DNA of 64,000 nt from Salvelinus alpinus (Eukaryota; Chordata; Actinopteri; Salmoniformes; Salmonidae), in assembly GCF_045679555.1 (NCBI RefSeq), contig NC_092092.1, positions 13,943,190 through 14,007,189 of the forward strand, written 5' to 3'. The notes beneath the pieces were generated by a model. That model worked only from the letters and a program-made list of their open reading frames with translations, did no database searches and was not told where the DNA came from. Both the position numbers and the translations under genes were made by a program. Positions 36,301 through 39,300 of this stretch are shown here, in pieces (position 1 is the first letter of the stretch; every line of letters begins with the position of its first letter).

Positions 36301-39300
36301 TTCAGACTGGTCTTACTCCCTCAATTTTCAGAATACAAGCCTGAAATAATTTCTAAAGACTGTTGACATCTAGTGGAAGCCATTGGAAGTGCAATTTGAG
36401 TCCTAAGTCATTGGAATCTGTATAGGCAGTCTATGGAAAACTACAAACATGAAGAAAAAAAAATATATATATATATATATATAAAATATCCCTCTTCCTG
36501 GATGGATTTTTTTCAGGTTTTCGCCTACGATATCAGTTATGTTATACTCACAGACATTACTGTAACAGTTCTGGAAACTTCAGAGTGTTTTCTATCCAAA
36601 GCTACCAATTATATGCATATCCTAGCTTCTGGGCCTGAGTAACAGGCAGTTTACTTTGGGCACGCTTTTCATCCGGATGTCAAAATACTGCTCCTACCCT
36701 AGAGAAGTTATATTCCATACACAAAACACCAGTCTGTCTAGCCCAGCCTGTTATTTTCCAAACACAGAACTTCAGTCTGTCCAGCCTGTTATATTCCAGA
36801 CACAAAACAGCAGTCAGCCTGGTCTAGTGTTGAAGAATAAAATACAAATCAAGAGTGAAAAGGTCAACTCCTTGAGCAGTCCCACTGAGCCTACAAGCTT
36901 GGTATAGTCCTGACTCATTGGCTCATTCCTCTCGTTTTCAAGTGACCCTCGTGACTCACTGGTCTGGTATCTCAGGCTTGTAAAAGGGGAGGTTAGCTTC
37001 CTTGTCAATTTGCCCCCCCCCCCCCCCCCCTCAGTAGCGGCTCCTGATTGGCCGAGTAGGTGGGGCCGAGCCGAGTGCAGGAGGGTTAATGCATCATATT
37101 AGCCAGCCTGATAATAGCTCCTTTTCCAATTTGATTAATTTCTCTAAAAACTCTAAAAAAGGAATAGTAAAGTTATAGACAGACTATCACATTGGACCAA
37201 TACCGTAGCCCACATAACCCATCTATCCTATTTAAAAAGGACTGAAGACAGAAACAGATCATTTGGTTCCATTTCAACACATACACACACACAAAAGTAT
37301 GTGGCCGCCCCTTCAAATTAGTTGATTTGGCTGTTTCAGCCACACCCGTTGCTGACAGGTGTATAAAATCGAGCAAACAGCCATGCAATCTCCATAGACA
37401 AACATTGGCAGGAAAATGGCCCGTTCTGAAGAACTCAGTGACGATCGACGTGGCACCGTGATAGGATGCCACCTTTCCAACAAGTCAGTTCGTCAAATTT
37501 CTGCCCTGGTCAACTGTAAACCTCTCTCAATCTATTGCGGACAGTCTGAGCACTGATGGAGGGATTGTGCATTCCTGGTGTAACTCGGGCAGTTGTTGTT
37601 GCCATCCTGTACCTGTCCTGCAGGTGTGATGTTCGGATGTACCGATCCTGTGCAGGTGTTGTTACACGTGGTCTGCCACTGCGAGGACGATAAGTTGTCC
37701 GTCCTGTCTCCCTGGAGCGCTGTCTTAGGCTTCTCAACATACAGACATTGCAATTTATTGCCCTGGCCACATCTCTAGTCCTCATGCCTCCTTGCAGCAT
37801 GCCTAAGGCACGTTCACGCAGATGAGCACGGACCCTGGGCATCTTTCTTTTGGTGTTTTTCAGAGTCAGTAGAAATTAGTGTCCTAAGTTTTCATAACTG
37901 TGACCTTAATTGCCTACCGTCTGTAAGCTGTCAGTGTCTTAACGACCGTTCCACAGGTGCATGTTCATTAATTGTTTATGGTTCATTGAACACGCATGGG
38001 AAACGGTGTTTAAACTCTTTACAATGAAGATCTGTGAAGTTATTTGGATTTGTACGAATTATCTTTGAAAGACAGGGTCCTGAAAAAGGGTTTCATTTTT
38101 GCTGAGTTTATATTTATGTTTATTTATTTTCCCTTTTTGTACTTTAAATATTTGCACATCGTTACAACACTGTATATACTTTGGCAATGTAAACATATGT
38201 TTCCCATGCCAATAAAGCTCTTTGAATGAAATTGAATTGTTGAGAGAGAGGGTAGTGATGTGCACCAGGGTATCCTGCCTCTTCCTGTTTGTTATTCCTG
38301 CCTCTGTTTACAAGGAAGGACAGTGTTACCTGTCTGTTTACAAGGGGAGACAGTGTTACCTGTCTGTTTACAAGGAGAGACAGTGTTACCTGTCTGTTTA
38401 CAAGGGGAGACCGTGTTACCTGTCTGTTTACAAGGAGAGACAGTGTTACCTGTCTGTTTACAAGGGGAGACAGTGTTACCTGTCTGTTTACAAGGAGGGA
38501 CAGTGTTACCTGTCTGTTTACAAGGAGAGACAGTGTTACCTGTCTGTTTACAAGGAGAGACAGTGTTACCTGTCTGTTTACAAGGAGAGACACTGTTACC
38601 TGTCTGTTTACAAGGAGAGACAGTGTTACCTGTCTGTTTACAAGGAGAGACAGTGTTACCTGTCTGTTTACAAGGAGAGACAGTGTTACCTGTCTGTTTA
38701 CAAGGAGAGACAGTGTTACCTGTCTGTTTACAAGGAGAGACAGTGTTACCTGTCTGTTTACAAGGAGGGACAGTGTTACCTGTCTGTTTACAAGGAGGGT
38801 CACTGTTACCTGTCTGTTTACAAGGAGGGTCACTGTTACCTGTCTGTTTACAAGGAGGGACAGTGTTACCTGTCTGTTTACAAGGAGGGACAGTGTTACC
38901 TGTCTGTTTACAAGGAGGGCCACTGTTACCTGTCTGTTTACAAGGAGAGACAGTGTTACCTGTCTGTTTACAAGGAGGGACAGTGTTACCTGTCTGTTTA
39001 CAAGGAGGGACAGTGTTACCTGTCTGTTTACAAGGAGGGCCACTGTTACCTGTCTGTTTACAAGGAGAGACAGTGTTACCTGTCTGTTTACAAGGAGAGA
39101 CAGTGTTACCTGTCTGTTTACAAGGAGAGACACTGTTACCTGTCTGTTTACAAGGAGAGACAGTGTTACCTGTCTGTTTACAAGGAGGGCCACTGTTACC
39201 TGTCTGTTTACAAGGAGAGACAGTGTTACCTGTATATTGGGGTTCTGTCTGTTTATATCAGCCTTGGAGAGGTCAGGGAAGTTGTGGAGGTCCAGGAGGA

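Follow-up and report, generated by a model that had tools for sequence, protein, structure and literature searches.

Exon 2 of the ism1 (isthmin 1) gene in Salvelinus alpinus is followed by 30 further copies of its own splice donor, raising the questions of how an exon came to have 31 equal donors, which of them the spliceosome would choose and whether the copies extend the protein. The gene lies on the minus strand of a 64,000-nt window, the whole stretch of DNA that was analysed. Its six coding exons join to give an intact 473-aa protein with a TSP_1 domain (PF00090, residues 231-270) followed by an AMOP domain (PF03782, residues 303-439), both above the cut-offs, the domain order by which ism1 is recognized. 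Exon joining placed the coding part of exon 1 at 51014..51154, exon 3, which begins VTIEVVDD, at 34968..35271, exon 4, which encodes TSP_1, at 21674..21817, and exon 5 at 18642..18731; the coding part of exon 6 (14843..15360) was located by joining and by its match to the AMOP domain. Exon 2 itself (39230..39454, 225 nt) is a 91.6% match to the corresponding exon of a second ism1 copy and ends at the donor ATATACAG|gtaaca. Its junction with exon 3 is in phase 0, the residues ..NPNIQ being joined to VTIEVVDD.

The sequence-only reading of this locus held that an array starts at the exon 2 donor and carries 30 extra copies of CAG|GTAACA in 30-nt steps, and the sequence bears this out exactly. 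CAGGTAACA has exactly 31 matches on the minus strand of the whole window and none on the plus strand, spaced by 30 nt throughout, with the last exonic bases at 39230 (the exon 2 donor), 39200 and so on to 38330, and CAG|GTAACA at each. TRF reports a minisatellite at 38303..39233 on the minus strand (period 30, 31.0 copies, 95% matches), whose unit starts 4 nt inside exon 2, so that the final ACAG of the exon (39230..39233) belongs to the repeat. The nine core donor bases are identical in 31/31 units. The earlier description of the competing donors as equal at the core was confirmed when all 31 were scored for U1 pairing: each site forms seven contiguous base pairs with U1 at a duplex energy of -8.0 kcal/mol, and on the same scale the other four ism1 donors all pair more strongly than that of exon 2 (-8.2 to -11.9 versus -8.0). 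The units had also been called open in the exon 2 frame and fit for a phase 0 join to exon 3. In agreement, the frame of exon 2 stays open across the array and past it (38162..39454, minus strand), with the first in-frame stop 355 codons after the donor; within the units, stops are met in one of the three frames and none in the other two. In this frame the 30 full units would encode one 10-residue peptide or close variants of it, and the last, degenerate unit a different 10-residue peptide.

We compared the open frame through the 31 donors with what chance would provide. When the donor was kept and the rest of the unit shuffled (20,000 units), 0.72 remained open in the exon 2 frame, and the period is divisible by 3 in 23/66 distinct arrays of the two ism1 regions. 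Taken together, these values make an in-frame array unremarkable, since chance alone would make roughly one such array in four appear to be in frame. As a repeat, the donor array is far beyond chance; its openness in frame is not. With the degenerate last unit set aside, the 30 full units show six distinct changes, of which one is synonymous (1/6, versus 26/90 possible single changes), so neither the unit variants nor the shuffled units supported selection on the coding frame. Five unit positions vary, none of them within the nine donor bases, and in the unit variants this sparing of the donor is not significant (P = 0.14). The unit variants look neutral.

The second ism1 copy, found by searching the genome (2.37 Gb, 928 contigs), offers a direct comparison. 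It lies on contig C3 (C3:5898949 region) and encodes an intact protein of 483 residues. Salmonid genomes are expected to hold gene partners from whole-genome duplication, and the C3 gene is probably such a partner of the window gene. Both copies have the same six exons, and their reading frames are intact (473 and 483 aa) despite the arrays. The C3 exon 2 donor is the same CAG|GTAACAct at the same place, and in the 100 kb around C3 ism1 there is no further copy of this donor or of two searched pieces of the unit; a TG microsatellite of 300 units begins 18 nt downstream of it. The presence of the same donor, standing alone, in the C3 copy indicates that the donor is older than the array. The donor array thus appears to have arisen, or to survive, only in the window copy. 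In the C3 gene the exon 3 donor runs directly into a GT microsatellite.

The structure of the array is compatible with a minisatellite that began as a tandem duplication across the boundary of exon 2 and intron 2, a founding event that we infer from it. The simplest founder would be 30 bp long, consisting of the ACAG at the end of exon 2 and intron bases 1-26, and subsequent expansion within the intron would have left a full core donor in every unit. Such a founder predicts that the downstream edge of the array continues into intron that can be aligned with the C3 copy, and the alignment is as predicted (ACAGAGGCAGGAATAACAAACAGG versus ACAGAGCAGGAAGAGCAAACAGG); a single 30-bp duplication accounts for the unit and for both edges. 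The exon also contains TAAACAGACAG (39245..39255, minus strand), which equals the 3' 11 nt of the unit and may be a second source of it. A match of this length was found in 0/400 shuffled units when they were compared with the final 60 nt of exon 2 and in 1/400 when they were compared with the whole exon. It is therefore possible that a 45-bp duplication reached into exon 2 as far as TAAACAGACAG at 39255-39245 and later lost 15 bp, but given the flank alignment this origin is less simple than a 30-bp duplication. Under the 30-bp founder, seven bases of the 11-nt match come from the intron and four from the end of the exon, which leaves the match partly to coincidence. Spread of the array by a mobile element gained no support from a shallow genome search (two candidates scored, common words skipped), which found no other genomic copy: array matches came from the window locus only, with 13/14 on contig C7 and the 14th at C3 exon 2. 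The window also has open frames, at 37510-37875, 28003-28377 and 53594-53917, that resemble remnants of Tc1-type transposase and LINE reverse transcriptase.

In the window gene a second junction is repeated too. On the minus strand at 15347..16780, a 59-bp minisatellite (24.9 copies by TRF) carries 25 acceptors, TTCTAG|AC[A/C]CAGACAG, by motif count. The true intron 5 acceptor, from which exon 6 starts at 15360, is the last of the 25. Upstream of each stand a CTAACTAAC-like branch point and a pyrimidine tract, and each 59-bp unit holds 14 nt matching exon 6 after the acceptor with at most two changes. If used, each of the other 24 acceptors (24/24) would by translation lead to a stop after 316-324 residues and so remove almost the whole AMOP domain. 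The C3 copy has the intron 5 acceptor in three copies in all, within the same 59-bp unit. Because this unit occurs in both copies, the acceptor array either predates their separation or was shared by later exchange. Differences between the copies at fourfold sites (2/20 in exon 1, 5/31 in exon 2, 1/18 in exon 4, 1/16 in exon 5 and 6/73 in exon 6, with exon 3 omitted because its length differs) do not decide between the two. A further junction is repeated in the C3 gene alone: its exon 4 donor lies within a 66-bp array (9.7 copies by TRF) and occurs nine times, one GTAGG near-copy not being counted, and TRF finds no array across the exon 4 donor in the window. The extra C3 exon 4 donors, if used, would all (8/8) lead by translation to a stop after residue 283.

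We also inspected 50 exons with donors inferred from sequence: the 30 best-scoring fn3 exons of 150 scored matches, several of them from the same large genes, and 20 TSP_1 exons hand-picked from separate places among the 150 listed, with their flanks then unseen. Arrays span the inferred donor in 2/50 sampled exons. One is an fn3 exon on C10 (63426702 region), where a 41-bp unit is repeated 2.1 times across the inferred donor GGCCACAG|GTAGGAG. The other is a TSP_1 exon (C16:44604537-44609386) with a 32-bp array of 61 copies extending over 1.95 kb, in which there are 54 exact donors CTG|GTAAAT; by TRF, its unit holds 13 nt of the exon. The first two extra donors of this exon would shift the frame, and the later ones lie beyond an in-frame stop. 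In a third sampled exon the array begins soon after the donor and does not include it. In none of the 50 exons did an array reach the start of the domain match, and with approximate acceptor positions no acceptor array was noticed. One sampled TSP_1 exon has a 21-bp repeat of three copies lying roughly 90 to 29 nt upstream of the TSP_1 match, in the branch-point region and short of the junction.

Tandem repeats with a period of at least 7 make up 57% of the window, an equal share (57%) of the 100 kb around C3 ism1 and 23% of ten 5-kb stretches picked blind by coordinate, which range from 0 to 100%. One of these blind samples, C11:8000001-8005000, is entirely a 36-bp tandem array. Typical eukaryotes have 0.5-3% tandem repeats according to a paper on cod (PMC5241972), under definitions that differ from the coverage used here. 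We then asked how many arrays would span an ism1 junction if founders fell at random, using the 16 and 26 arrays of the window and C3 regions, respectively, and taking the present period as the founder length. In post hoc comparisons, the window gene has two junction-spanning arrays where 0.13 are expected (P = 0.008) and the C3 gene two where 0.18 are expected (P = 0.014); for both copies, with the shared acceptor array counted once, three are seen against 0.31 expected (P about 0.004). This excess is a hint, short of proof, that junctions may be favoured or that the gene is unusual. Minisatellites are very abundant in this genome, and the donor array is among several that span a junction.

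A study of intron gain by tandem duplication reportedly found that such duplication copies splice-site sequence. The ism1 array likewise copies a splice site, but comparison of the two ism1 copies reveals no new intron, the same six exons being present in both. In recursive splice sites a usable acceptor directly adjoins a 5' splice signal. Each ism1 unit has a pyrimidine run and then CAG|GT, TCTCTCCTTGTAAACAGACAG|GTAACA, with a competing AG 4 nt upstream of the cut.

The closest parallel is the VNTR in intron 18 of human ABCA7. De Roeck 2018 (PMC5954066) describes a 25-bp intronic minisatellite that starts at the exon donor, the first two bases of the unit being the GT, with about 12 to 427 units in people and a donor in each unit. 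Retention of one unit is reported there at about 2% whatever the array length. Longer arrays show more skipping of the following exon, a product that in brain, together with the other variants, can exceed the canonical transcript (PMC5954066). The ism1 array resembles that of ABCA7 in beginning at the exon donor, 4 nt inside exon 2, and in carrying a donor in every unit (31/31 9-mers). It differs in that the ABCA7 unit is 25 bp and frame-shifting whereas that of ism1 is 30 bp and in frame, in that the ism1 array is known from one assembly, and in that an ism1 acceptor is repeated as well. Genes of human segmental duplications were described as having internal minisatellites whose units average 30 bp and which are reported to alter splicing where they lie at exon-intron boundaries (De Grassi and Ciccarelli 2009, PMC2812944); boundary repeats there reportedly form novel introns, whereas the ism1 intron is present in both copies and the array lies inside it. 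In fish, the nearest case is intron 1 of Sparus aurata myostatin-2, whose repeat alleles carry a predicted intronic acceptor (PMC3045353), in contrast to the exon's own donor copied in a long array in ism1. Among the matches listed from open-licence papers, we found no fish exon whose own donor or acceptor stands in a long array.

The best explanation for these observations, to which we assign a probability of roughly 0.7, is that the array is a junction-straddling minisatellite, probably near neutral, and that exon context keeps the donor at 39230 dominant. The true donor would be distinguished by its upstream context, since about 4 nt of the exon are copied and the exon body is not. Because the exon body is uncopied, the 39230 donor should stay ahead through exon definition and exonic enhancers, and its dominance among the 31 is accordingly what we would expect. 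By analogy with ABCA7, a minor in-frame product with 10 additional residues may arise from the next donor, at a few per cent of +30 usage, and long alleles would perhaps lead to exon skipping, as was measured in ABCA7. Some in vitro work with duplicated donors is said to have favoured the intron-proximal site, from which the reverse result would be expected here. Exon definition forcing the first site was one of the two inferences that the sequence-only reading had offered; it is the better of the two on our analysis, and fits the measured ABCA7 case.

The other was that the repeated donors are used appreciably, giving a series of ISM1 proteins extended, between the parts encoded by exons 2 and 3, by n x 10 residues that are mostly hydrophobic, an outcome that we consider unlikely. 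The parts of that inference that stand are the equality of the 31 sites and their compatibility with the frame: all are in frame and stop-free, and the exon 2-exon 3 junction is in phase 0. The ladder of isoforms built on them found no positive support, as the open frame is expected by chance, the variation among units looks neutral and the other ism1 copy is without such an array. Furthermore, ABCA7 units also carry a donor, yet the reported retention is confined to a single unit and does not rise with array length. Elsewhere the extra sites are out of frame, the 24/24 ism1 acceptors and 8/8 C3 exon 4 donors leading to early stops and the C16 units shifting the frame or meeting a stop. A ladder is thus possible but unsupported; the array is a junction-spanning minisatellite of the ABCA7 kind, to which ism1 adds a repeated acceptor and other genes add further instances.

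RNA structure could also single out the first site. In most units a hairpin, AGACAG-[GUAACA]-CUGUCU, would close the donor CAG, and the true donor, preceded by AUAUACAG, would form it incompletely and so be favoured. Indeed, 22/30 array donors fold at -6.9 to -8.1 kcal/mol with a 5-6 bp stem, the true donor with AUAUACAG before the cut reaches only 4 bp and -3.5 kcal/mol, and an equally strong stem occurred in 6/5000 shuffled units. At 37 C the first site has the most accessible CAGGUA in both settings; at 12 C, however, it ranks only 4th or 5th. Moreover, 8/30 units (1, 3, 6, 10, 13, 14, 21 and 27) fold weakly, at -1.0 to -4.5, comprising unit 27 and the seven GUAACAGUG units, and in all four settings GUAACA at the first site falls below the array average in openness (e.g. 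0.026 versus 0.281). In a 12-unit model, the first-to-array ratio was matched or exceeded in 98/300 shuffled arrays, and array accessibility was as low as observed in 55/300. Although the stem is unusual, the contrast in accessibility is within what shuffling gives, and together with the lesser openness of GUAACA at the first site this led us to reject hairpin masking as the main mechanism; that it favours the first site at all seems improbable.

Could the array instead act as a decoy, binding many U1 snRNPs and regulating intron 2 splicing or polyadenylation with a dose set by copy number? It does offer 31 sites with seven contiguous U1 base pairs, and its length, judging from the behaviour of minisatellites, likely varies between individuals; but the donors are weak and the second ism1 copy has no array, and we regard such a role as very unlikely. 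That the array is an assembly artefact, absent or not adjoining exon 2, is the least probable reading: there is a 100-base gap (N) at 40064-40163, at the edge of a neighbouring 39-bp, 179-copy array by exon 2, and a 2108-bp exact duplication inside a 25-bp array (4066-6173 and 6622-8729), but the donor array runs unbroken from exon 2 and, at its other end, into intron alignable to the other copy, and similar arrays occur at other junctions. The two segments 4066-6173 and 6622-8729 are identical to the last base, as a recent duplication or an assembly repeat would be.

Read as a near-neutral, junction-straddling minisatellite, the donor array seems more a side effect of a genome full of repeats than a designed switch. 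A broader reading, which we put forward tentatively and hold to be possible rather than probable, is that minisatellites in this genome arise time and again at splice junctions. Many genes would then carry arrays of whole donors (up to 54 seen) or whole acceptors (25 seen), exon context deciding how they are read and array length tuning the leakage, towards an in-frame ladder in steps of 10 residues at exon 2 and truncated ISM1 at exon 6. If so, leakage at exon 6 would yield ISM1 without nearly all of its AMOP domain, and because the stop lies in the last exon this truncated protein would be expected to escape nonsense-mediated decay. The choice of the spliceosome among identical sites has been studied mostly with artificially duplicated sites. 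Here 31 identical donors and 25 near-identical acceptors in one gene provide a natural test of that choice, with the C3 copy, which lacks the donor array, as a built-in control and the C16 gene adding 54 donors, and RNA from one fish could directly measure the effects of position. These findings suggest that VNTRs embedded in a junction, as at the ABCA7 risk locus, are no human peculiarity and recur where minisatellites are dense.
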